From Watersipora subatra (Eukaryota; Bryozoa; Gymnolaemata; Cheilostomatida; Watersiporidae), in the NCBI RefSeq assembly GCF_963576615.1, contig NC_088712.1:27681870-27745869 (forward strand): a DNA stretch of 64,000 nucleotides, written 5' to 3'. A model generated the notes under the pieces. That model saw only the letters and a program-made list of their open reading frames with translations. It was not told the origin of the DNA and did not search any database. The position numbers and the translations under genes were made by a program. Every line of letters starts with the position of its first letter. Positions within the stretch are counted from its first letter, which is position 1. This document shows positions 6,111 to 61,900 of the stretch, in pieces.

Positions 6111-6830
6111 TCTAATATATATAATATATGCAAATTAGAAAATTAAATAGTTTACTTATCTTTTTCAGCTACTAGCAGTTTTTGCTTGCGCAATCATCAG
6201 GCTGTAGACTTCAACTACCAGATAGGAGTTGAAATGCTAATAGAGTTGATGGGAGTTAATTTTCTAATTTATACTCCATCCTATGTTCAGCACTGTGATT
6301 TTAGTTGTAAGTATGATAAATTTAAATACATAAATATATATTTGTTGAACTCACAAGTATGATGTTTATAGGTGATGCTGGGAAATGCACACGTCAGCTA
6401 TGTACTTGGCTCATTTAAAGGACATTCTCTTCCAAAGGTTGAACCAAATTAAAAACTTCCAAGTTTTTGGTAACTGACAGCTATGACACATTATCAAGCA
6501 CACAGGTATGTAGTGATCACCTGTTAGTAGTCTCAATTCTTGACCTCTCCAGTAATGGTACCTCATGCTATGTACGTATGTCACATCTCCCCACAGACTC
6601 TTAGTAGGTAATAATTGATGTTATGATTAGTTCTATGAAAGGCAGCTCCAGATGTTTCCTAGCTGACAAAAGTGTTTTCACTTTGACCTTGTGTCAAGTA
6701 CACCTTATGTAAACCTTTGTATATGTACCTTATATAAACCTCATGTAATATCTCAGAGTTTTGTCCAACTGGAATTTATAAAAGGGAAAGCTATTGCTAG
6801 GTTTGCTGTTGCTAGGTTCCAAGAACTTGT
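6110..6830. other. Gene-free stretch
   Basis: Nothing coding is seen. A small inverted repeat (AAATTAGAAAATTAAA near 6131 and its complement near 6255) brackets a segment whose reverse complement contains CTGATGATTGCGCAAGCAA. That is a hammerhead-like but core-damaged string. Confidence 0.4.
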
Positions 6831-9262: not shown

Positions 9263-10719
9263 CACTTGGTTCATTTAATACATCAGTCTGAACTGGCTTA
9301 GTTGTTCATCTTGTATCAAATCATACGGAGTGTGTTTGAAAAATTTTATTTTTCACCATAGGACGTGAGGAGCTTGACTTGTCTTTTGTATTTGTGGCCT
9401 AATGATCGCAATTTCCTAAATGTTTCTTTGAAAATATTTCAGTTAAATACTGTTCCTCTTGTGTGAATGCAGTTCTTTACTTCTCTATTGTGAATGTTTT
9501 TTTAAGCTAAATGAACAGATAATTTTTAATTTTAATTTCTTCTTTAATAACTTTTGGGATGTTTTGGTTGATGTAGCTTATATTATTAATTGGAGTCATT
9601 TCTCCTCGATTATGCTAAACGCTCTCTTCATATTGTTAGCATTTTAAACTTATACCTGAACAATAGTATAACTATTGCATTGTCAAAGGTCTACATTGCT
9701 AATCGTTCAATACATTGATAGAATGAGAAAAATGGAACAGCTAAGAATAAAACTGAATAACCGTAAAACCTCTAATTGAACGCTACCTCTAATAGAACGC
9801 CACCGTAGGAGAAGGGTTGAAAAATACAGTGCCATACTTTAATCTAGGCAAATGACTTGCATACTCAACTTCTCTACATTCTAATCAGATTTTCTTTTCA
9901 TCTCTCCACCGAAGTCGTCAATTTTTTCTTAGTAACTTTATCTTATGGGTTCCTTTAACATTAAATTGAGCAGTAACTTTATTTGAACGCCATCTCTATT
10001 TGACTGCCACTGTCAGATCAGTGTTGAAAATAGTGCCACCCTTTAATTGAATGTCACACTATTAAAGTGCTATTCTGACTTCTTTAACCTTTACGAACTC
10101 ATTTGTAATTAGCAGAAATGTGTCCACAAAATAGTACTAATAATGACCCAGTTACATCGATAACAATTAAACTCTTTGGTTATTGCTGTAGTGCTACCAT
10201 GGCTTTATTGACAGTGAACCTGAGAGAACGTATTGTCACAATAATCATAACTACACTCTGATTCGAAGTCAATGTTATCTAAATTAAATCAATTTGTCTT
10301 CAGATTTGTCCATAATATAGTTTGCAATCTGACCTGAACACTTGAAAGCATTTTGATGAACGATGAGAATACTCATCGGGAACACCATACGATGAACTAG
10401 CAGCCGTTGATGTTGGTGTATCGAAGTCTGTTTTCCAACTTCAAAGTTTAGTTTTTCTTTAGAACTTCAAAACCTCCAAACTTTTCTTTTGTGTTTCAAG
10501 TTCTAAGAAGTGGGAGGAGTTGTGAGAAAAATATAATTCCTACAAAATCATACAAAGAAAGAGTAGAAAAAGTTATCAGGTATATTTGGACCAATTATTT
10601 CAAAAAATATTTGCCGGTATCAAGCAGTTATTATGAGGAAAGTGAAAGTAATGCAGGTAAAACAAAAATATGAATATGGAAAGGCTATATAAAAGTCATT
10701 ATAATTATAATCACCTCTA
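9263..10719. other. Gene-free stretch with a transposon-end block
   Basis: Bases 9762-10150 contain AAAACCTCTAATTGAACG and several GAACGCCA-type repeats. They match, in inverted orientation, 16975-17160. No gene is supported elsewhere. The minus-strand frame at 10300-10440 is only 46 codons. Confidence 0.45.
9762..10150 (+). repeat. Transposon-end-like block, left member
   Basis: AAAACCTCTAATTGAACGCT at 9765 and AGAAGGGTTGAAAAATA downstream match the reverse complement of 16975-17160. Shared order includes GTGTCCACAAAAT at the inner edge (10130). GAACGCCA-type motifs recur within the block, as transposase-binding repeats often do. Confidence 0.6.
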
Positions 10720-11925
10720 CTTGTAATCGTCTCAACATACAATCAGACCTTTACTTATGATCACCTTAACATACAGTCAAACCTCTACTTATGACCACCT
10801 CAACATACAGTCAAACCTCTACTTATGATAACCTCAACATACAGTCAAACATCTACTTATGATCACTTCAAGATACAATCAAACCTCTACTTATGATCCC
10901 CTCAACATACAGTCAAACCTCTACTTATAATCATCTCAACATACAGTCAAACCTCTACTTATGATCACCTCAACATACAGTCAAACCTCTACTTATGATC
11001 ATCTCAGCATACACTCAAACCTCTGCTTATGATCACCTCAACACACAATCAAACCTCTACTTATGATCACCTCAACATACAGTCAAACCTCTACTTATGA
11101 TCACCTCAACATACAGTCAAACCTTTACTTATGATCACCTCATCATACAGTCAAACCTCTACTTATGGTCACTTCAACATACAGTCAAACCTCTACTTGT
11201 GATCACCTCATCATACAGTCAAACCTCTACTTATGATCACCTCAACATACAGTCAAACTTCTACTTATAATCACCTCAACATACAGTCAACCCTTTACTT
11301 ATGATCACCTCAACACACAGTCAAACCTCTACTTATGATCACCTCATCATACAGTCAAACCTCTACTTATAATCACCTTAACATACAGTCAAACCTCTAC
11401 TTATGATCACCTCAACATACAGTCAAACCTCTACTTATGATCACCTCATCATACAGTCAAACCTCTACTTATAATCACCTTAACATGCAGTCAAACCTCT
11501 ACTTATGATCACCTCAACATACAGTCAAACATCTACTTATGATCACCTCAACATACAGTCAAACCTCTACTTGTGATCACCTCAACATACAGTCAAACCT
11601 CTACTTATGATCACCTCAACATACAGTCAAACCTCTACTTATGATCATCTCAGCATACACTCAAACCTCTGCTTATGATCACCTCAACACACAATCAAAC
11701 CTCTACTTATGATCACCTCAACATACAGTAAAACTTTTACTTATGAACACCTCAACATACAGTCAAACCTTTACTTATGGTCACCTTAACATACAGTCAA
11801 ACCTCTACTTATGATCACCTCAACATACAGTCGAACCTCTACTTATGATTGCCTCAACATACATTCAAACCTCTACGTAAGATCACCTCATCATACAGTC
11901 AAACCTCTGCTTATGATTGCCTCAA
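10720..11925 (+). repeat. 34-bp minisatellite, about 35 units
   Basis: The unit is TTATGATCACCTCAACATAC followed by AGTCAAACCTCTAC. Variant units (ATCTCAGCATACACTC, then CTCTGC, then CAACACACAATC) occur at 11001 and again at 11647. That spacing of 646 bp is exactly 19 units, so a 19-unit block was duplicated. The array ends about 90 bp before the CCAAT box of the TGF-beta-like gene. The upstream in-frame ATG at 11811 falls inside it. Confidence 0.95.
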
Positions 11926-12010
11926 TGTGCAGCTGCATGTGCATGGTAGCTTGCTTGCTCACGATAGACCAAAATTCCTTTAAAATAGAAAGTGTACCGC
12001 TTTACAGTAG

Positions 12011-12015: not shown

Positions 12016-12055
12016 CTATAGTTGTTTATCTTGGCAGCAACAGCATGAGAGAATG

Positions 12056-12063
12056 TATAAAAG
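12056..12063 (+). promoter_or_regulatory. TATA box
   Basis: TATAAAAG is a near-ideal TATA box. Transcription would start about 30 bp downstream (about 12084-12090), just before the ATG at 12102. That gives a very short 5' UTR and supports the 12102 start over the in-frame ATG at 11811, which sits upstream of the promoter inside the minisatellite. Confidence 0.7.
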
Positions 12064-12101
12064 CGCAGCTTTTAGCTGTCTCTATCAAAAGAGCCAGAAT
12101 C

Positions 12102-12211
12102 ATGCAGCCATTCTTGTTATTATTGATTGCTGCCAGCATCAGCATACCACTTGTCTACTGTCGACCTGAAGATTCAGCTAGTCAGCAAGATTCCTCCAAA
12201 ACATCTGACAG
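12102..12211 (+). CDS. TGF-beta-like ligand exon 1: signal peptide and spacer
   Basis: 36 codons plus two bases (AG), then donor GTAAAG. It encodes the signal peptide and the start of the acidic, serine-rich spacer RPEDSASQQDSSKTSD. The split codon AG|T is completed as serine by exon 2. Confidence 0.85.
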
Positions 12212-15200
12212 GTAAAGTCAATTTCTTTACAAAGATATTAAAAATGAAAGACAATAAATGTTATAGTTTACTTTTATGGTTTATTTAGCTGAGTATCTAT
12301 TATATATTATATGTCATAAATACATATTATATGTCATAGTTACATATTATATGTCATAGTTACATATTATATGTCATAGTTACATATTATATGGCATAAT
12401 TACATATTATCTGTCATAGTTACATATTATATGTCATAGTTACATATTATATGTCATAGTTACATATTATATGTCATGGTTACATGCTATATGTTATAGT
12501 TACATATTATATGTCTTAGTTACATATTATATGTAATAGTTACATATCATATGTCATAGATACATATTATATGTCATAGTTACATATTATATGTCATTGT
12601 TGCATATTATATGTCATATTTACACATCATTTATCATACTAACATCATAGTAACAGAGTTTGAAATTGAAAAAAACATTGTATACATATTATGAAACATT
12701 ATCGGCAATATTCAGTGAAGTGGCTGGCACTAGGCCGATAGCTGAATTCGTACATGGTTGGCAGTGAAAGGGTTAAATGAATAGGGAACGCAATAAAAAT
12801 CGTTATGACCAAATACAAATCAGTACAACAGTCGCCAAATATTTATTTCGAGAGAAATTTTTGTTGAAATGGTTTAGCGGAAAGCACTGTGTTTTATAGG
12901 GGCATATTGACCTGTGGACGCAATGCATCGATAAATACATCATCTAGCATAAATTTATATCATTTATCTGTTTGCAAAACCGATTTTACCATAACGAATA
13001 CCGGTGAACTGGCCATGGGGAGCATCTTTTACTAACGTATATTATAAAACACAAATCACCAAATTGTAGATTCGATATAAATAATTGTTAATATCTCAGG
13101 GCGAAACAATTTTTCCCTAACGAAGAAAGGCGAAAAAGCATCCTTCTGCATATACTGAGGTCCCAAAATATTGTTAATCAGGGGTATCGTAATGTGTAGG
13201 CGCAATGCTAAAATAATTCTACTTTGCATACGGTATACGATATATGATAACAACTGAGATCATTATGCCTTGCATGGCTCATTGGTAAAGTGTTTGGATT
13301 CAAATCTTGCGGTACCAATGTCCGCGAGTTCAAATCCATCAGTTCGTGGACTTTAAATTCCAAGATTGTAATAACTATAGTTGGACATATAAAATGATTA
13401 AAAATTTTAAAATCGATTGTATCGATGTATATTGATTCAAAGAAATTGTATCAAGCCGTATAAATCCCTAAGAAGTCACTATAAATAAACTAACTACCAT
13501 TTCTTTGATGTATCATTTACTTACAGTGATTTTTTAGCACTCATCTTACGTTCCACAATCATTAAATGCGAAAAAGATCTGCTTTTTTATATAGATTACC
13601 TTTTGCATTTGTTAAGTGTTTTCAAGTTATAATCATTACCTTTTTAATTTGTAATTTTTAAATGTGCTTTCTCAATTGTGTGACTATAACAGCACAAATT
13701 CAAACTTCAATTTTCAGTTTTTCCAAAAGGCATTTGCTAGAAATTGCAAAACTAAAAGCTGTCCACATCGAAACTCTCGAGTAAGATTTGCCACAGCATT
13801 TTCTCTCCATTCAGTCAGACAAAGTACCTTTGTGCGCTTAACTGGTATGTTTAATTTCAATATCTTGTTTTTACGTTTAAATCTGTATTGAAAAGAAACA
13901 GTATCTGTCATATTCAAAGTTTTGATAACTTTTGCTGTAGCAGCAACTTTTTGTATACACACTCGTCCTAATAATACTTTTTATTATTAATCTATATATA
14001 TTTATTTATATTATTTACCATATATATTTATCAAAGTTTGTCGTCTGTCTGTCTATGTCTGTTGGGCTATCTGTCTCCTGGCTATAGCTATTAAAGTCTT
14101 GGAATTAAAATCTCGCAACCTGGATTTGAACTCACAGTTATTGCGAAAACAGGTTTGCAATCCAATTGTCTAACCTCTACGGAAGCTTTTACTGTATACT
14201 TTGTACACTTTTTCATCGATTTTATACGCTAATTGATGTAAGAGTACAAACTCTATTAACTCTATGAAACACGATGCTTTTTCAACTTTTTCTGAACTTT
14301 TATTTCCGGTTTTTTTTGTAAGGTTTACTCACAGGTTTCGATACATGCATCTACATGTAGGTACCTGTATCTACATGTAGATACATGTAGGTACATAGGT
14401 ACAAGCATTTAGCTTTTACAGATTTGCTGAAACCGGAAATATGAGCAGAGCATTTAAAATTTAAATGGCCCATTTGAGAGTTACAAATTAAAAAATAGAA
14501 TGTAATGGTAAAAATATTAGCTTTTAAAGAATTTCAAAAATAAATAACACATGCGAAAGATAATGTTAATTAATAATAAAAAGTGTACATTTCACATGTG
14601 CAATCTAAAAAGGATATACAGTAAAAGGTGAGAGCGACGGAAACGATAAGAAAGGTGGTTGCGTGCACTTGTTAGTATAGACGCGCTACTTGAATGTCGT
14701 GGTTTCAAATCTAGTATGAAGGTGATTTTTCGTTGCTATAACTTTATCACAATAAATAGATAGACAAAGAGCAGACAACAGACAAACACTGACTTATATA
14801 AGTTTATAAAAATATAAATTAGCTTCAAGATTTATGCCGTCATAATAATTATCGGTGAATTGCTGCCAAATATAATTTTACTGGATCAGAGTCTATTTTC
14901 AACTGTTTTCCATCATAGCTAGATCTTTTATTTTTTAAATCAGACATTCAAAACATTTTAAATATCAATAAAGCTTATTTATTACGACTCGAAATCTTTT
15001 CAAATTTAAAATTTTTTGATAAAAAAAATTGTTTTTTATCAAACCTGTTTAATTAGTACAAAGTGGTCGTTGGAAAATTTTTCATTTCTGCTGGCACTAA
15101 AAATTTGATGTTAGTCTATTCCTGGAATTTGTACCTGCACTAGAAATATGACATTAGCCAATTTGAAAACTTTGATTTGCGCTAGAAATATGGTATGCAA

Positions 15201-18065
15201 CCTTGCGATTTTTTTATACATGTTCATAAAACGCATTATATAGCTGGTCAAACTCACGAAGTCATCGACACAAGCATGTCAGTGTATCAGACAGAAGGAG
15301 ACAATTCTATATTAATTTTTGTCATACCTAAATACAGCTATTAAAAAGCAATGTCTCCTTTAAATCAATGATTGTGCAGTGCAATGAGGGTAACTTTTTT
15401 ACACCAGATCATAACTTGTTTTATTTTCAGTAGAAAACCAAGATTTTGTGATCAGGGAGAGAAGGGGTGCTGTCTCCATGAGTTCTCCAGAGCAGCCCGT
15501 GATCTTTCCATCAACATTATTCAGCCAGCACGCATTCAGATGAACTATTGTGATGGTCATTGTGGTGAGTTTCCTTTCTAACCTTCAAGATATATTAAAT
15601 TTAGATTACAGACTTTCAACAATAACTTGGGAGATTGCAAGATTTTGAAATGTTCATTTAATTTGTCTCATACTAATATTTATGGAAAAAAAAAAAATTT
15701 TACAAAGTTTTCAGCAATATTAGAAAATGCATTTTGACATGTGAATCGTGAAATTTCAGATAACTACTATATTTTGGAACAATGTTTTATTTCAAAAGAA
15801 ATTCATTTCATTTGTAGTATTACATTTTATAATACATTTTCACGAATTTATCATAAAACTGATTGATTGTCATGTCGCTCTATTTTTCAACCTTTTATAG
15901 GTCAATTGGAGGCAGCATTCAAATACAGGCTGGCCGTGTATTTTTCAATTGGCTCGTCAGAACTTTTGGAAGATTAATTTAGCCTTATTGCGGGCAAAGC
16001 GAATGTTGCCTATATTTTGCTCTCTTTTTTGGCCGGTGGAGCAATATTACACCTTTCGGATGCAACAAATCTGCTAACTTACCTCCAACTTGTCAAAGAT
16101 TTCCTAATAATTAATATGCATCGAGGAACTGAAAAATATCTCTACCAGTTGATATCTATTGCTTGCAATTGATCTGCAATAATATTACAGGCTGTGACTT
16201 TCTTTGCTATTTAATGCCCTTTTCAATTTTTATTACATTCTAAATTTTGAGATATTTTTTATATCTATATTTAACAATGTTGAATAAACGCTCATTGCAC
16301 TCATTGATATGTTTGCTACAGTTTGCAGCCAAAACTAGCTTTTTATGTGCAGTAGAAGTAGAGTTATGAGCATCGATCCATTCTAAGCAAGGATGCTATT
16401 AAATAACATGCTATAAATATGCATACTTATAATTTATATAATGATAATCCATCAAATGATAGAAATATATATTCATCAAAAAGTGGCATAAATGAACCAT
16501 ATTTAAATTACATGCAGAAATTAAATTTAACGTTTTTAAAACAAAAATATTTCCATCGTTTGCTTAGATAGTTGCGTTCTGATTGTTGCTTTTGATGGAG
16601 CGAACAGCTTCTAGTTGTCCAATATCTTCCACATTATCCTCTGGCCTCACCTCTCCCTGTGCATTGCTGAACTAGTCGATATTAGCGTCCAAACAACTTT
16701 TAATCGAGCAAAACCTTTATGCGTTGCATTTAGCCCAAACGCAATGCGTAAATGTTTACTCGCTAAACGTAAGCCTTGGCCCAAAACTTGCAAACCATTT
16801 TTAAATGCATGTTCTTCGAAGTATTAGGACCGCTGTAAACAAGCAACTACTATTAGCCTGAGACAGTTATTGATTATTTCTATGGTGTTGCTTTCAAAGT
16901 TTTAACAACAAAAAAAGTGAAAAGCTTAGGAGTTGGACAACAAAATAATTTATTGTTATTAATAGTAAAAAATTATTGTTATTAATGTAAACAATTCATT
17001 ATTAACTCAATTTTGTGGACACTTTTCTACTGGTCACTTGATATTATGGGTTCATACAGATCAAAGATAGTCAAAGTGGCGTTCAGATGGAGGTGGCGTT
17101 CAAATAGAGGGTGGTATCTATTTTTCAACCCTTCTCTTCAATTGGAGGTTTTATGGTAAATTTTATTACATGACAACTTACAAGGGTTTTTACAAGGGCT
17201 TTTTGTGCAGTTAAAAAAAAATAAATCAGAAAAATAAAACAACTCTAAAAATTTTTGTAACTAAAATTTTAGTGCTATAATCACACAGACAAACCACAGA
17301 TGTACAGACAAACTTTGAGGTTTATATACATAGATTTAACTCAGTCAATATTATACATGACTAGGTAAATGCCCGGCGTTGCCAGGGTAATTAAAAAGTC
17401 TTTAGACAGAAAAATTGTTTTTATTTAACACATACAACTTTTTCCGTTCTAACTTTTAAACTTCTTATCATGGGAAAAGTGTTTTTGCGCAGTTCAAATT
17501 TAGATAAATGTAAAACAATTGTATAAGTTTTCAAACTTTTTCAAACTGTAACTTTTAAATTTTCATATATAGTTTCAATCAATACGTCATTAAGCGTGTG
17601 AAATTGGAAAAGGGTGGATACAGTATACAGTAAGAGCCATGCATTGTAAGTCTTTGCAGACTCATGGTAAGACGATTACCATTAATTAACAATTAAGGAT
17701 TGCAAACCTCTGGTTGCCATCACCGTGAGTTCAAATCCAGCACAACATGAGATTTTAATTCCAAGATTTTAATAGCTTTAGCTGGACATACCGAACTACA
17801 GACAAACTTCGAGATTTATATATATATATATAAATATATTATATATACATGTATATATATATATATACATGTACGTATATAGATTACTTTATTGGTAGAT
17901 CACACCCTATCAAGCTACGAACAAGCCCTTATGGGCCTGGTACCTGTCAGCTCGTGCTGCCGCGCCACAGAATCTATTGATGTCCAGCTGCTGTACGCTG
18001 TCAACGATACTGTAATGACACATTGGCTTCCTAAAAGAACTGTCACACGTTGTGGATGTTCCTAG
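12102..18065 (+). CDS. Minimal TGF-beta superfamily ligand without prodomain (3 exons, 136 aa)
   Basis: Exons 12102-12211, 15431-15564 and 17899-18065 join in phase (2, then 1) into 136 codons ending TAG. Residues 1-20 are a signal peptide (MQPFLLLLIAAS...VYC). A hydrophilic spacer of about 21 residues follows, ending in RKPR, an RxxR furin-type site. The cystine-knot domain then has nine cysteines: FCDQGEKGCC, NYCDGHC, SSCC, and RCGCS at the C-terminus. The C-x6-CC start and CGCS end are as in activin/TGF-beta-type ligands. Oddities: there is no prodomain of some 200-350 residues; the paired tryptophans after the first CC are missing; and only about 19 residues separate CDGHC from the second CC, against about 28-32 usually. 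Family members signal through serine/threonine-kinase receptors; whether this one does, or acts as an antagonist, is unknown. An unseen phase-compatible exon could lie in the 3.2-kb intron 1. Confidence 0.85.
12295..12640 (+). repeat. 20-bp minisatellite in intron 1 of the TGF-beta-like gene
   Basis: The unit TACATATTATATGTCATAGT is repeated about 17 times with few changes, starting 84 bp after the exon 1 donor. Confidence 0.9.
12750..12776. mobile_element. Possible orphan piggyBac-type end
   Basis: GGCAGTGAAAGGGTTAA resembles the end plus TTAA target of the piggyBac element at 61055-62113 (GAAAGGG|TTAA). No partner end is seen nearby. Confidence 0.35.
12790..13395 (+). repeat. Dispersed repeats ending in a tRNA-like tail
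   Basis: Bases 12825-13010 match 5160-5345 (AATCAGTACAACAGTCGCCAAAT and the TTACCATAACGAAT block, there in another order). Bases 13268-13395 carry the tRNA-like tail: ATGGCTCATTGGTAAAG, GAGTTCAAATCC, then the conserved ending TAATAACTATAGTTGGACAT. Confidence 0.55.
13600..14170 (-). repeat. Composite element, inverted copy or copies
   Basis: The reverse complement matches 23680-24060 (the segment on AAAGTTTTGATAACTTTTGC and the CTCTCCATTCAGTCAGACAA part). Bases 14040-14165 hold an inverted tRNA-like tail (GGATTTGAACTC as B-box complement). The ORFs at 13664-13891 and 13714-13962 are within this repeat. Confidence 0.55.
14430..14815 (+). repeat. Composite element, 3' part
   Basis: It matches 23945-24310 in order: TTACAAATTAAAAAATAG, TAATGTTAATTAATAA, the tRNA-like region with GTGGTTTCAAATC at 14699, and a tail ending in a TATATAAG-type run. 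Confidence 0.6.
15431..15564 (+). CDS. TGF-beta-like ligand exon 2: first half of the knot
   Basis: The acceptor is a strong TTTTATTTTCAG. The exon encodes RKPRFCDQGEKGCC through NYCDGHC, i.e. cysteines 1-5, and ends with a single G before donor GTGAGT. Confidence 0.85.
16975..17160 (-). repeat. Transposon-end-like block, right member
   Basis: The reverse complement begins TACCATAAAACCTCCAATTG and carries GAACGCCA repeats and GTGTCCACAAAAT, matching 9762-10150 in opposite orientation. The pair brackets exons 1 and 2 of the TGF-beta-like gene. Confidence 0.6.
17360..17880 (+). repeat. CCCGG-box/tRNA-tail composite element
   Basis: It begins AAATGCCCGGCGTTGCCAGG and continues through AAAAAGTCTTTAGACAGAAA to a tRNA-like tail (GTGAGTTCAAATCC, 17727; CAAACTTCGAGATTTATATA, 17802). 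It then passes into TA/CATG microsatellite ending just 19 bp before exon 3 of the TGF-beta-like gene. Confidence 0.75.
17899..18065 (+). CDS. TGF-beta-like ligand exon 3: second half of the knot
   Basis: The acceptor is TTTATTGGTAG at 17888-17898. The first two bases complete the split codon as GAT (D). It encodes HTLSSYEQALMGLVP, then SSCC (cysteines 6-7), a two-strand finger LLYAVNDTVMTHWLPKRTV, and terminal RCGCS (cysteines 8-9), followed by TAG. Phase, cysteine pattern and C-terminus all agree with the family, which is why I prefer it to the read-through at 15902. Confidence 0.85.
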
Positions 18066-18230: not shown

Positions 18231-18236
18231 AATAAA
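18231..18236 (+). terminator. Poly(A) signal of the TGF-beta-like gene
   Basis: AATAAA occurs 165 bp after the stop codon. A T/G-rich stretch (TTTTAGTGTTTTGTTT, from 18252) follows, as expected for a downstream cleavage element. Confidence 0.6.
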
Positions 18237-18299: not shown

Positions 18300-18445
18300 A
18301 GTAGAAAGTTGTCTATATAGCACTCTATAGAGTTGGTTATATAGAGTGCTATATTATATATAGCACTCTATATAACCAACTCTATAGAGTGCTATATATT
18401 ATATATAGCACTCTATAGAGTTGGTTATATAGAGTGCTATATAGC
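18300..18445. repeat. Nested palindromes
   Basis: TATAGCACTCTATAGAG and its complement alternate around AGTTGGTTATA, giving three or four overlapping inverted copies. They can fold into a long hairpin or cruciform just downstream of the TGF-beta-like gene's poly(A) site. Confidence 0.8.
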
Positions 18446-46900: not shown

Positions 46901-49900
46901 CTGAACCTGTTGTCCTTGGGGATGGCAAGAAGGAAGTCCCGCCCATTAAAGTTAAGGTGAGTAAATTTATGCAATTTTAGTTTCTAAATTTATAGCTTTT
47001 TCAAAAATTTAGTAAATTTAATAAACTAGGTGCTTTTGAGAGGAAGTTTACACTGAGACATTGAAATAGCGAAGAGACCTGAGTAGGGAAAGTAATTTTA
47101 TCATGTAACAGGTATGGAGCAGATAAAGGTCATAAGGTGGGTCTAGTGCTTTTTTGGTGCCGCCATTTTGACCCCATGTTTTGGCTCTTATTTTTATGGC
47201 TTTTGGCGTCATACAACTAAGGCCGAAATAAAAGAATCATTTTAGTGGAGAATAACAAATAGATATTATAATATTTATTATAAATGTTATTATATATTAT
47301 TTTTGCAGTGTATGGATTTAATTGAAGTAGGAAAGTGTTCACATTTTTATTTTGGCAATAAAGCATCAGCAAAAGGTCCTTCTCGCTATTCCTGTCAAAC
47401 ACAAATAAATAAACATTGAGACAGAATTTTGGTTTATCACTTTTGCTCAATATTGTCATTTCCATATTTGCTGATGGATAAAAAATCATCTGAAGTGTAA
47501 ACTAAAGAATTCTAAAAGCGATTTGGGTAATGAGTCGGCCAGCAGTAATAAACAGCACCAAACCGAGTAAGCGCCAACAAATCAGTAGCCTGGCCAAATC
47601 GATCCATTCCGTTCTGATGAAGGAAGAGGAGTCCCTAAAATGAATGCCAAAAGTCTTTCAGAGCACTCATCATGGAATTGTACATTACTAGCATATTTGT
47701 TAATTTGATTTTGCAATAACCATTGCTTGCACGCTTATAGCCAAGGAAACGAGCGTTATCCAAGTCAATTCTGCATAACAAGGATGAAGTTCCACTGGTT
47801 CAGCCCGAAGAGGTTGAGTCCAGGGAAGAGTTTACCCCTCGGACTGTTCCACTGGATGAGAGAGAACTTTACACTCGTCAACATTCTCATCAGGTACAAG
47901 AGTTTCTTTTATGGCAGGCTAGTACCAAACTTGACATCACACCGCTCCCGCCGTGTCAACTAACAGTTATTCATTGTCGAGTGGTTATGAGTGAGAAACT
48001 AAACGTAAAATGATGTGACAACACATGGAATTTTGGCTGTCATCCAATCACTGAACATAAAACATTCACAAATTACTTAGCTGTGTTTATTATTATTAAA
48101 AAGTTATTATTTATTTATTTAAAAATAATGTCAGCTCTGCCATAAAAGGTGTTGACTGTATGTTGAGAGAGTGTAAAGGTTTCTTAGTAGAGGTGTTGAC
48201 TGTATGTTGAGAGCATGAAAAGGTTTCTTACTAGAGGTGTTGACTGTATGTTGAGAGCGTGTAAAGGTTTCTTACTAGAGGTGTTGACTGTATGTTGAGA
48301 GGGTGTAAAGGTTTCTTACTAGAGGTGTCGACTGTATTTTGAGAGCATGAAAAGGTTTCTTACTAGAGGTGTTGACTGTATGTTGAGAGTGTGTAAAGGT
48401 TTCTTAGTAGAGGTGTTGACTGTATGTTGAGAGCATGAAAAGGTTTCTTACTAGAGGTGTTGACTGTATGTTGAGAGCGTGTAAAGGTTTTTTACTAGAG
48501 GTGTTGGCTGCATTTTGAGAACGTGTAGAGGTGTTTTAGTAGAGGTGTTGACTGTATGTTGCGAGCATGAAAAGGTTTCTTACTAGAGGTGTTGACTGTC
48601 TATTAAGAGTGTATAAAGGTTTCTTAGTAGAGATGTCGACTGTATGTTGAGAGCGTGTAAAAGTTTTTTAGTAGAGGTGTCGACTGTATGTTGAGAGCAT
48701 GAAAAGGTTTCTTACTAGAGGTGTTGACTGTATGTTGAGAGTGTGTAAAGGTTTCTTACTAGAGGTGTTGACTCTATGTTGAGAGCGTGTAAAAGTTTCT
48801 TACTAGAGGTGTTGACTGTATGTTGAGAGCGTGTAAAAGCTTCTTAGTAGAGGTGTTGACTGTATGTTGAGAGAGTGAAAAGATTTTTTCACATTGCGAC
48901 AGTTTGGCAGTTTTTCCTTCAAACAATGTCGTGTTTCTGTTTTATAGCCTACAAATAGCATGACCTCTTCTGATCCTGATCCTACTCCACCTGTCGAAGA
49001 TTCCGTAATTCCCACCCAAGTAACCAATCAAAATGCTAATCCTTCCTTGCCAGTTAAACATACCCCAGATGTGAGTTTTCATGCAGCTAAATTTATGCCT
49101 AAACTTGTAACTGTAGATATAAAATTTTACTTGCAAATTTGTAACTATGTATATAAATGAATTTCAATGTTTGTCATATGTTACTTTATAGTCATTAAGT
49201 TTTAGGAACAATAAAATGCGCTCCGTAGTGGATTTGAACTCACAAAGATTGCAGCTGCAAGTTTGCAAACACGCACACCTCAACAAGGCTAAGCCATTCT
49301 TATCGTTCTTAGCTATTCTATCTATGGTGTCTTTATCGCTAAAGGGGATGCATTTTGTATTATTAGTTAATATTACCTTTGCCGTTTGTATCGCTTTTTT
49401 ATTGTTTTTAAACGCCATTTCACAATTTATTACCTATTTCTTTAACTTGTAATTTTCAAATGTGGCGTTTCAATTTCAAATGTTCTATTGCCGGCTCCAA
49501 TTTCTAGTTCTTCCCCGTGGCGATCGCTGAGAACTATTAAATTTAAAACTTCTACCTGGACCTGCTTTTGTGTAGGAATGGCATCTATATTCCCTGTCCA
49601 TATGGTCAGACAAAGCATCCGACAAAAACGTCTGATATCTCATTTTTACGTTTGTACCCGTATCGAGGGCTACCAGTATCGTTGTATTTAAAGGTTGGAT
49701 GGATAGCTTCTGTTACAACAGTAACCTTTTTATACACACACTTCTATGTAGTTACTGTTATTATTAATTCAGAATATTCATGATTTTCATTTTGTTTTCT
49801 CAGTTGATAATAATCGTATCATTGTCAAATCATCTTTTATTGTAATCGTAGTAGCAAAACAGACTATCTAGCCAATACTTGCCAATTATTTCACATTTAA

Positions 49901-52900
49901 ACACCTTCACGGTTGGTTTTTTCTCCTAATTTATCTGAACTGCACAAAAAATACTTTTCTCATGATATGTAGTTTGAAAGTTAGAATGGTAAATGTTGCA
50001 TATGTTAAATAAAAATAAATTTTCTGTCCAAAGACTTATTACCCAGGCAACGTCGGTCATTCAGTTGGTATATGTATAATTGTATATACTAGCGGAATTC
50101 CCGGCGTTGCACCGGTACTAAAAATCAGCTTATCAACAGTGACAGGTAATGAAGTGGCCTGCCACTTGCCATTAGCCTGGCACATTGCCAATGACTAATT
50201 TGAGCAAGCTAGTAATGTAAACTTACTACTAAGAGCCGTGAGAGCAAGCTCTAGTGGCGTTATGCCCTAACATAATGCTATGCATATTTTAACCTAGATA
50301 ATCACTCATGTCGCCCAATGAATCCATCAATCTCGCGAAGCTTAGTTGGTAAGATTTGCCTGGCGAAGGGAGGTTCCGAGATCAAATCCAGCTGGGTGTA
50401 AGCTTTGACTTCCATGATTTTAATAGATATAGCTGGACAAACCGAAGTACACAAACTTTGAGATTTATACATATAGATATACATGTATACAGTATAGATA
50501 CTTGTATACAGTATATATACATGTATACAATCAGTATATATACTTGTATAGATGTATACAGTATATTTACATGTATACAGTATATATACATGTATACAGT
50601 ATATATACATGTATACAGTATATATACTTGTATGCAGTATATATACATGTATACAGTATATATACACGTACATGTATGCAGTATATATACTTGTATACAG
50701 TATATATACTTGTATACAGTATATATACATGTATACGGTATATATACATGTATATAGTATATAGGTATATACATATATACATCTATGTGCGTAACACACG
50801 TAAATGTACGTGAAAGCTCACTATTAATAATCAGACAATGATTGTCTGATGTTGTTTTGCAGACTCTGGTCTCAACGAATGCTGCCACTCTCAGCGCTGT
50901 CATTGCTTCTACTAGCCCTGCTGCCTTTGATGCTCAGCCAGCTAGCAGCGGCGCTAAAGGCAAGAAAAAGAGTCGAATGGCTGGAGTTCTTGAATCCATT
51001 GACCAATCAGAACTAAGTGCTGAAGAGAGTTGCCTGCTTGTGGAAGAACTCATAAAGAGACAGTCGCCTGCTCTCTGGGAAAAACAGGTAGTCAAGGCTG
51101 GGGGTTAGTCTAACCTAGATTAAGGCTCTCTAATACAGTGATATAAATAGAGTTACCAGAGGGACTGATAGCGCAAAATGTCTTCCCTTTTGATTTGTAT
51201 GTAAAGCCATATAAGCTGTTTGCTAACTGAAAAAATGTGGCTATCGTTTATCAAGTTTTTAATGCGGGTAGTTTTTATTCAGCAATGGAGTTACGTTCTG
51301 AGGACCCTGTCATTAAGTGATTCCATTGCTAAACACTTCTTCATGGCTCCCCTTCATGGCTCCCCTTCATGGCTCCCCTTCATGGCTCCCCTTCATGGTT
51401 CCCCTTCGTGGCTCCCTTTCATGGCTCCCCTTCATGGCTCCCCTTCATGGCTCCCCTTCATGGCTCCCCTTCATGGCTTCCCTTCATGGCTCCCCTTCAT
51501 GGCTCCCCTTCATGGCTCCCCTTCATGGCTCCCCTTCATGGCTCCCCTTCATGGCTCCCCTTCATGGCTCCCCTTCATGGCTCCCCTGTCTATTGGCTAC
51601 ATGGGCTACTAGCCGAATCAAATAAGGAAATAATTACTTAATGAATTTGAATAGCTCACCTCATAAGCTAGCAAAGTTACTAAAACAATTGCAGTGTTTG
51701 CAGATCATTTTAGTGTGTAATTGTCAATTGTGCTAGCTAAAGACTCCAAGCGCTTTAGTCTTAAGTATTTTAACTGATGTAATAACTGGTGCTTGGGTAG
51801 TCTAATAGTTAAGCTCACCGCCATTGGATCTGTAGGTCCTGAGATCAAAACCAACTCCATGTGAGATTTTGTTTGCTAGAATTTAATCACTTTAATTGAA
51901 TACAGGTTTAACCAACATAAAGACAAACACTGAGATTTGTATATAGATTTACACTCTATGGTACTTCTTCACCTTTTCCATTTTTCTATTAGGTCTTTTA
52001 ATAATAAGTTTAAACTTTTAACAAGTAAATTAAATTTTAAATTTTTTACATTAAGATTTTGTGATGTGTGCACAAGTATGTATACAAGTGTTAGGCTACC
52101 ATAGAGTACATTGTTGATGTTACATAATTTTACCTTTTCTTTATGTTTACATTCTCAGCATTTCCCTTTTCTAAATGTAAAGGGAAATGCCGAGAGTAGC
52201 CAACCTATAGCATATACTATAGCATTTTTCTATAATGGTTCAACTACGCCAGCTTGTCGATTAACACTCGGTATCGTACATGTATAAAAATGTACATGTA
52301 TAAAAGTAAGGTCATGGCTAGCATACAGGTGTACTATCTACACATACATGGTTACGTTAATGTTGTGAAGAAATATATATTCTTTTTATTTAACATATTT
52401 TGACACATTTAATACGGCGTCGTAACTCTGCCTCGTCGTTAAACGAAGTTTTCTTGTACGAACTACAATTTTGACATTGGTTTCATGGTTGATACACCCT
52501 TAATAAGTGTGGATTTGTTGTGAGCGTTGGGTACACACAATATTTGGATTCCAATTAGGCTCTCATCATAATGGCTGAGAAATGGCCGTAGCTTGGTCAT
52601 CATTTGTGTACATTTGGTCATCATTGGTCATTGATCGACACTACTAACCAATCTTTTGGAGGCTATGGTAGCCAATCGGTTGCAGTTGAGTTCGCTGGAT
52701 AGTCAAAGTGTTTTTACTGGATTCATCTTTTAATCGATGAAGTAATTAATGTGGGAATTGTGTTTCCTTGATAGTGATGTTTAGAAGATAATTTCAAGTT
52801 TACTAATATGTGTAGTCCTCAATAATTGCTCATTGCGTACCTTTGGCTAATTTTGGATAGTTTTTCACCTCGTAGGGAGTTTTAAAAGACTCAAAGTGCT

Positions 52901-58900: not shown

Positions 58901-61900
58901 AATGACCAGTCATGCTAGATGCATTACAGCTACGAATTTTTACTAATTTTAGTTCTATGGGCTTTGGGTGATTGTTATTGAACAATGATACTACTGAAAT
59001 GCATTATTCTTGTTTTATCAGAAATAATGATGCCGCAAACTGTAATAATATTGCTAAATCGGCCGAGCCGGACACGCTCACGATCTTTGAAAAGGGCTGA
59101 AAATGTTTTCCTTATCCATTCTGCAACCCTTTTGTAGTATTTTTCATGGCATCAGCTAATGTAAAGTTTTATGATGATTAATTAGGTAACAAAACATTTT
59201 TATAGATGGTGTGGTTCAAAAGCTAGGGCGTTTCATGTATATGCACACCTGTCAAATATTAGGTTTTGTCAAATACGTTATTACGTTCCAGTAAAGAAAT
59301 TAATTTGGTAACGAAAGAGTTAATTATGCGCATACTTATTACAATAAGAGTGCAGAGAAGGAAAAGATGATGTGCTGAGTTTACAAGTTTAGATAATAAC
59401 AGGCTTGTGTTAAAGTATTGTCTACTGTAAAGTGTCTCTGGATACAATTACTATGATATACGGTTTTTCCACCTTATGAATTGGAACATGATGATTTTTT
59501 TCACCTCACCATACAAATTTTTTTCACCATACGAGTTCATCAAAAATTTCACCGGATTTCAAATTTGGCAAGATTATAACAAAAACATTGCAATGCTGTT
59601 CGCCGAAAATATTTTCGCAACACCTGAAAGAGACATGATGACCGATTTCTCTCAGTTCATCAATTCTTGTGTGTAAAATGGTAATATTTTCCCTTTAAAA
59701 CCGGTAACAAAATTGGAGTTGCGATCCTTTCAAAAAGAATAATTCAGTGGTCAGACAACTTTTCTTAACTCGTTAACAAAAATCCACTTCATTACAAAAA
59801 CAGCAGCATTCGGCTATCAGGTTGAATGAGGTTTTAATGAGACCAGCTAAAATTATAGGCCATTATATTAAAAACAAATAGAAAGTTGAAAATCAGTAAA
59901 GTATATAAAAATTCATACCAAAACTTAGCTTTAAGTTTGCGTTTAGTAAGCTAAACTTATTTAAAGTGAATTCAAAGTTTATGTTATACGTGCCTCTGTC
60001 TTGAAGGTAAGCACTCGCTACGACACGCACTACACAGCACATTGCAACATTACATTGTATTGCAGACCATAACCAATAAATACACTAAATACAATAAAGT
60101 TACTGTAGGTAAGTATAGTTACTAAGGTTAACATACTATTTTGTTACTCATTTTTAATATGTACGGCACTTATATAAAAAATTTTGATGATTCATACCAG
60201 GGGATGTTTGCATTATATAATTACTATAGTTTCTACACCCCTACATATGATTTATCTACATACGATGTCAACCCTGGAACAGATCAAAATCATATTCTGA
60301 GGGTGCGCTGTATATTATATATGTTTTGCATATGAGAGCTGTAAAATGATAAGGTGAGAAGATGCTATTTGTCTAGCATCTACAGTATGACCTATTGACC
60401 TTTTACCTGTTCATAAAGGAGTTTTTCCGACATATTAATATTTATGCTGGTGTCACCAGAAATTTTAACCAAACCTTTAAATCCTTAAAACGCCATAATT
60501 TTTATAACAAATTAAATTGAATAATATTATCAGTATTTGTATGTTTGCTGCTACAAGGTAGCACCCATCTTCAACATAATTTAATTATAAGTTCTGGTTG
60601 TAATCAAAAATGATTTATTTAGAAAAGGAAATTCTTGTGATGACCTTCGCACATGAGAATGCTTAACTGAACCTTTTTTGTAGGCAGATAAGTGTTCAGT
60701 CTTAAGAGTAAGTCCTCATATATAGGGGACTACTATCTGAGGGTATTCATCGCCTGTTATTTGGTTGCCCAGTAGTAACCAGGCTTTTGTAAACAAATGT
60801 TTTGTGTTTCTAAGGGGTCATGGAAAATCCACCAGCACGAATAATAAACACATTTGGTACAAGGTTGTTTAGTTCCTCAGAAACAAATTTTTTTATCTAT
60901 TTTAAAAATAGAAAATGTTTATAATATTTTAATAAATTTTTCGCCGATTTTATGGCGATTCTTATTTGTCATATTGGAATTACCTGAGCCGTTGTATTTC
61001 ATTCGCTGTTAGTCCACATAAAGTTACTCTCATTTGGTGATAAATTAGGTTAACCCTTTCGCGGGCAGTGCGACGTTTTTGTCGCTTTGCGATACGGCTG
61101 CTAATGGGCAGTGCGACGTTTTTGTCGTTTCGGTAACGTATTTTATTATTGCCGTTTCTGGTTAGCTAAATGCTGTTTTTTGTTTACTTTTTTTACCAAT
61201 AGCAAGCTACAATATAGTAGTTTAGGTTAGCCTCAAAATTTGACTTCAAGGTTGAAAAAAAACGATCGTTTTTAGCAGTGATGAATAAATAAACTTTCGA
61301 AAAAAATTAGAAAATTGTTCTAAATAATTTATTCACTTTTATTTTTCTTGTTTCGGTTTTAGCTTTTATTTACCGAATTTTTTGAGAGTTTGACTTTAGT
61401 TTACCGTCATGGCGATTTTTAAAACAACCTTCCGAGATTATTCTAATAAAGCAAGTACTAGTACCGAAATTACTAAGAGATTCAGAGCTGACAGTGACTT
61501 TTTAGATTTAGTAGCAAGAGATGACAGTGAATCAGGTTTGAATTGTGATTGTAATGACTTTAAATCTGGAAGTGACAGTGATAAAAAGGCTGGTAGCAGT
61601 AATGATGAGGATGTGAGTAGGAGTGATGCCAGTGCCTGGCAGAATATAACCAACATAAACAGAGATAAATCTCCTACAATTCAGCAGTTTATAGCAGTGA
61701 TAGGCCCAGTATTTACTCTAGTAGATGCTCAACCAGTAGAGTATTTTGAAAAGTTTTTTAAGCCTGTCAATCCAGGAAGTACATTTTTGTGGGAGCTCTT
61801 TGTTACACAAACAAGTACATGGTGCAAAGACTGTGATGTGGGCCTTTGTAAAGGAGAATGCTTTTGAAAATATCATTCGTAAATAGACAATTATTATGAA

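Follow-up and report, generated by a model that had tools for sequence, protein, structure and literature searches.

A probable TGF-beta-superfamily ligand gene almost without a prodomain in the bryozoan Watersipora subatra

The Locus and Its Gene Model

The window analysed here, a stretch of 64,000 nucleotides of contig NC_088712.1 from the bryozoan Watersipora subatra, harbors on its forward strand a gene that probably encodes a real ligand of the TGF-beta superfamily, known so far from this species alone and almost devoid of a prodomain (Table 1; positions are counted from the first base of the window). The original prediction, made from the DNA letters, had read three exons (12102-12211, 15431-15564 and 17899-18065), and this observation is confirmed: the exons join in phase across GT-AG introns and give a protein of 136 residues ending in CGCS-stop. 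A protein search among entries of about 75-238 residues returned 11 candidates and a single match, P0001, an NCBI-predicted Watersipora subatra protein of 174 residues named "uncharacterized protein isoform X2", which is 99% identical over 100% of the 136-residue query. P0001 is recovered without a single mismatch from window bases 6555-6607, 12038-12211, 15434-15564 and 17899-18065, and it is support, independent of the original prediction, for the joining of the signal and knot exons.

The two models part at their boundaries. Exon 2 itself stands, although P0001 takes the second AG, 3 nt later, and reads SDRKPR where the earlier model reads SDSRKPR. The acceptor is a tandem one at 15428-15433 (CAG at 15428-15430, TAG at 15431-15433), which would yield two isoforms one Ser apart just before RKPR. 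The proposed start at Met 12102 does not survive in P0001, where this residue is internal, because the NCBI model begins 39 residues earlier and includes a further exon upstream, which ends at 6607. Since a hydrophobic, signal-like stretch closely follows this Met, while being internal in P0001, and since a TATAAA motif lies 46 bases upstream, a shorter transcript starting near 12102 is possible. The splice sites had also been called strong; all are GT-AG, but the acceptor of exon 3 has pyrimidines at only 11 of 20 positions.

Table 1. Features of the ligand gene, in window coordinates
Feature	Position	Strand	Basis or remark
Upstream exon, coding part, of NCBI model P0001 (MVPHAMYVCHISPQTLS...)	6555..6607	+	P0001 rebuilt exactly; donor AG/GTAATA
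Exon with signal-peptide-like stretch and start of short spacer	12038..12211	+	ATG of the original prediction at 12102; donor GACAG/GTAAAGT
TATAAA, possible core promoter of a short transcript	12056..12061	+	motif match alone; within P0001 exon
Intron 1, phase 2, between signal peptide and knot	12212..15430	+	no prodomain exon found
Exon 2: RKPR, C43, CC, CxGxC (finger 1)	15431..15564	+	tandem acceptor CAG/TAG; annotated isoform from 15434
Exon 3: shortened heel, CC, finger 2, CGCS-stop	17899..18065	+	translation of joined exons and P0001
AATAAA, possible polyadenylation signal	18231..18236	+	motif match alone

The Protein Product

From N to C terminus, the 136-residue product consists of a hydrophobic leader (MQPFLLLLIAASISIPLVYC), a short, serine-rich and mildly acidic spacer (RPEDSASQQDSSKTSDS), the sequence RKPR, which fits only the minimal R-x-x-R cleavage motif, and a nine-cysteine knot of the TGF-beta type. 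The spacer had been given as about 21 residues ahead of RKPR; 17 residues (16 in P0001) follow VYC before RKPR, so that the figure of 21 is reached only when RKPR itself is counted. The knot was read correctly, as C43-x6-C50C51, C77xGxC81, C101C102 and C133xC135, with the C...CxGxC...CC...CxC pattern of a cystine knot at the C terminus, and so was the short segment between CxGxC and CC, with 19 residues between C81 and C101. The tryptophans after the first CC are indeed gone, W124 being the only Trp of the protein; the two finger-1 columns concerned hold I and N here, whereas in 13 of 14 canonical rows both are W, the exception being anti-Muellerian hormone (AMH). The search with the Pfam TGF_beta hidden Markov model (PF00019) that had been proposed as a check matches residues 50-135 with an E value of 8.3e-11 and 43 bits, against a cut-off of 27, and the knot is therefore no chance pattern.

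The Missing Prodomain

By the prevailing view, canonical TGF-beta ligands need their prodomain in order to fold, to be transported and to stay latent. It would lie between signal peptide and knot, and therefore within intron 1, where only four in-frame, stop-free cassettes of at least 60 nt are present with the donor patterns that were allowed, the longest having 93 nt and being made of a 20-bp tandem repeat. The longest open stretch of this intron is 78 codons, versus a mean of 75 in shuffled sequence, that is, at chance level. No longer form of the protein was found in a database search over a length band of about 173-550 residues, in which P0001 was the one match among 7 candidates. As intron 1 holds no cassette above 93 nt and no longer form appears among these candidates, about 20 residues, and not 200 or more, precede the growth-factor domain, and the claim that the prodomain is absent is upheld: 17 residues and RKPR stand between signal peptide and growth factor, where the prodomain of canonical ligands has some 200-350 residues. 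The 20-bp repeat (TTACATATTATATGTCATAG) occupies 12300-12624 at the start of intron 1, in about 16 copies, and is the source of the two longest stop-free cassettes.

Could the gene model simply be incomplete, with a prodomain hidden in small exons of intron 1, or the gene be a decaying duplicate? This seems very improbable. The missing cassettes, the chance-level open stretches and the search for longer forms speak against it, as do the reading frame, the two splice pairs and all nine cysteines, which are intact. Several points nevertheless weigh on its side or against a complete, functional ligand gene. Only one predicted isoform was read, while the P0001 cluster has 4 member sequences, and the evidence for splicing is indirect: P0001 is a predicted protein whose isoform naming is an indirect sign of RNA support, and the annotation of this genome that is described as built mainly from transcript alignments, in the available text of the genome paper (PMC12902671), is that of Ensembl, P0001 being an NCBI record instead. 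A prodomain distributed over several tiny exons, or one bounded by atypical splice sites, is a remote possibility. The two protein searches, which needed shared exact words, returned no orthologue from other species by which selection or conservation of the reading frame might be judged. The secretion signal is the hydrophobic N terminus after Met 12102, judged by eye. Finally, the structure model drew on GDNF and GDF8/11 rows as its alignment, and the modelled fold depends on that choice; the alignment-free model failed, with a predicted local distance difference test score (pLDDT) of 34.

Resemblance to Known Ligands

The product appears to resemble GDNF and myostatin/activin about equally. 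In a search of the PDB, GDNF and GDF11 come out level, with E values of 1.4e-5 and 1.7e-5, and profile scores are 27.6 bits against 48 GDNF domains versus 28.3 bits against 32 GDF8/11 domains; as cross-scores, the best of 3 GDF8/11 domains reaches 8.8 against the GDNF profile and the best of 3 GDNF domains 12.3 against that of GDF8/11. When the cysteines are kept in place and the remaining residues shuffled, the z-scores are 7.0 for GDNF, 5.9 for artemin, 4.2 for neurturin, 7.0 for GDF8, 6.1 for activin A, 5.7 each for BMP2 and AMH, 3.6 for TGF-beta1 and 1.8 for GDF15. Kinship with GDF15 beyond the cysteines is not borne out by this last value, despite the common C-x6-CC; the letters of the GDF15 row matched in full when checked.

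The GDNF-family ligands (GFLs; GDNF, neurturin, artemin and persephin) share with the product the spacing of 27 residues from knot cysteine to CxGxC, the absence of finger tryptophans, the CCR after the heel and a short propeptide. They differ from it in having seven domain cysteines instead of nine, without a CC pair at the start where the product has C-x6-CC, a finger 2 shorter by 2-3 residues and a longer heel. A median of 117 residues precedes the knot in 65 GDNF rows, isoforms and fragments included, versus 49 in the product, and the propeptide of persephin is shorter still than that of GDNF. Myostatin/GDF11 and the activins share the nine cysteines, the IIxP...NYCxGxC motif, LLY and an RCGCS or ECGCS end (RCGCS in the product), and differ by two retained finger tryptophans and a longer heel; their prodomain is large. 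AMH has likewise lost both finger tryptophans, but has seven domain cysteines and a longer heel, and a very large prodomain, and is not known outside vertebrates.

Ligands in general carry a prodomain of about 250 residues, and the GDNF family is described as arising in jawed vertebrates, according to the available text of PMC5979292. In the sponge Halisarca dujardinii, the TGF-beta ligands A-D, G and H have a predicted signal peptide and TGF-beta domain but, like the bryozoan product, no propeptide that was detected, although the authors keep a highly divergent propeptide as a possibility (PMC8235796, in the part available). The engineered TGF-beta2 mini-monomers (5tx2, 5tx4, 5tx6 and 8dc0) differ in being man-made, and the entry 5tx4 lists C77S, a change of the dimer cysteine that the product retains. 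Since the short propeptides of GDNF and the six sponge ligands precede it, the lack of a prodomain is a rare variant and no new category. The original prediction was right in proposing a TGF-beta-superfamily ligand without a canonical prodomain exon, but it overlooked the short propeptides of the GDNF branch, which the tryptophan loss and the finger-1 length also fit. Its further proposals, a minimal cytokine, a folding-independent ligand or a receptor antagonist, are conjectural. The BMP pathway of bryozoans also reportedly shows losses and duplications of an unusual kind, which would be consistent with a divergent ligand repertoire (PMC13121700, in the part available).

Phylogenetic Placement and Rival Identities

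Two identities compete for this ligand. It may be a fast-evolving ligand of the activin/myostatin type, or another canonical type, which has lost its prodomain and type I face and putatively acts as a type II-binding antagonist, a reading that is tenable but doubtful. It may also belong to the GFLs, or branch from their stem, as a protostome ligand putatively signalling through a GFR-alpha-like co-receptor and RET, which is rather unlikely. The trees and simulations lean to the GFLs. A tree of 19 domains groups the product with them at 98/98 and trees of 22 domains at 96/89 in both alignments, while inhibin alpha, lefty and GDF15, which also have long branches, remain with the canonical rows. 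The likelihood difference in favor of the GFL placement over that with activin/GDF8 is 11.8 under LG+F+G4, and this value is never reached in 60 simulations that assume the activin placement (largest 5.7), simulation tests of this kind being known to be over-confident. The difference amounts to 7.5 when the two tryptophan columns are removed, to 12.9 when the heel is removed and to 7.2 when both are, and is still 11.8 after dropping five unverified rows. The C50-C77 spacing of 27, as in GDNF, NRTN and ARTN, and the short propeptide point the same way, and the retained dimer cysteine argues against an antagonist, whereas the title of 5tx4 lists C77S.

Against kinship with the GFLs stand, in turn, the nine cysteines with their C-x6-CC pair, a CC-to-CxC spacing of 31 versus 28-29 in GFLs, the activin/myostatin-like IIxP...NYCxGxC and LLY...RCGCS, and the tied shuffle z-scores. 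Under a mixture model the likelihood difference is smaller than 11.8, namely 9.0 with 19 rows and 7.0 with 22 rows, and the approximately unbiased (AU) test rejects neither the activin/GDF8 placement (p 0.167 with 19 rows, 0.145 with 22 rows) nor a pairing with AMH (p 0.07 with 19 rows). In 30 columns the difference exceeds 0.6, and 12 of these favor the activin placement, the V of VTRCGC most strongly. The product adjoins the GDNF family and falls outside it only at 50/80 to 62/85, on a long branch, and in the 22-row tree AMH stands beside the joint group of product and GFLs (48/49), and the program warns in this case of long branches coming together. Apart from one spider row (P0116) and P0080, all canonical rows come from human or other vertebrates, and none is known as spiralian. 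Because of the AU tests, the very long row of the product, the lack of known spiralian rows, the over-confidence of simulation tests and the departure from the seven-cysteine domain, the product is not filed as a GDNF-family ligand. That it should be the first GDNF-type ligand outside vertebrates, as a protostome stem relative keeping the nine-cysteine pattern of TGF-beta ancestors, is an unlikely outcome.

Proposed Mode of Action

The model proposed here, for what is in either case a probable TGF-beta-superfamily ligand, is that the hydrophobic stretch at the N terminus would direct the protein into the secretory pathway, that the cystine knot would form together with an extra disulfide of C43, and that dimers would pair through C101, the first cysteine of the C101-C102 pair. 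After possible trimming at RKPR, the protein would already be active on release, with no large prodomain to keep it latent. Canonical ligands face their type I receptors with the finger tryptophans and the heel helix. As these tryptophans and much of the heel are missing, standard receptor use is unlikely, and the sequence suggests that the standard type I/type II receptor pair is most likely not used in the standard way. The boldest candidate receptor would be a GFR-alpha-like one, as for the GDNF-family ligands; the other would be contact with a type II receptor only, without type I, which may be blocking.

Other Features of the Window

A minisatellite at 10713-11925, with a 34-bp unit in about 36 copies, lies in the first intron of the NCBI model; its forward strand is C-rich, and GC skew is -0.41 for 10001-12000. 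Directly 3' of the gene, a 45-bp tandem repeat of palindromic look occupies 18314-18443. Two further tandem arrays are found at 48147-48886 (44-bp unit, about 17 copies) and 51339-51587 (13-bp unit, about 19 copies). The longest open frame outside repeat arrays, of 155 codons at 61400-61864, has no Pfam match and presumably resembles the start of a piggyBac-type transposase.

Biological Implications

With about 20 residues where the prodomain would stand, this natural ligand is a direct test case for the dependence of the family on that domain. GFR-like and RET-like receptors occur in invertebrates, where GDNF-family ligand genes were not found in silico, according to the available text of PMC3527400. 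Should the lean towards GDNF prove true, the gene would bear on the question of the ligand for invertebrate RET and GFR-like receptors, which have so far been without one.
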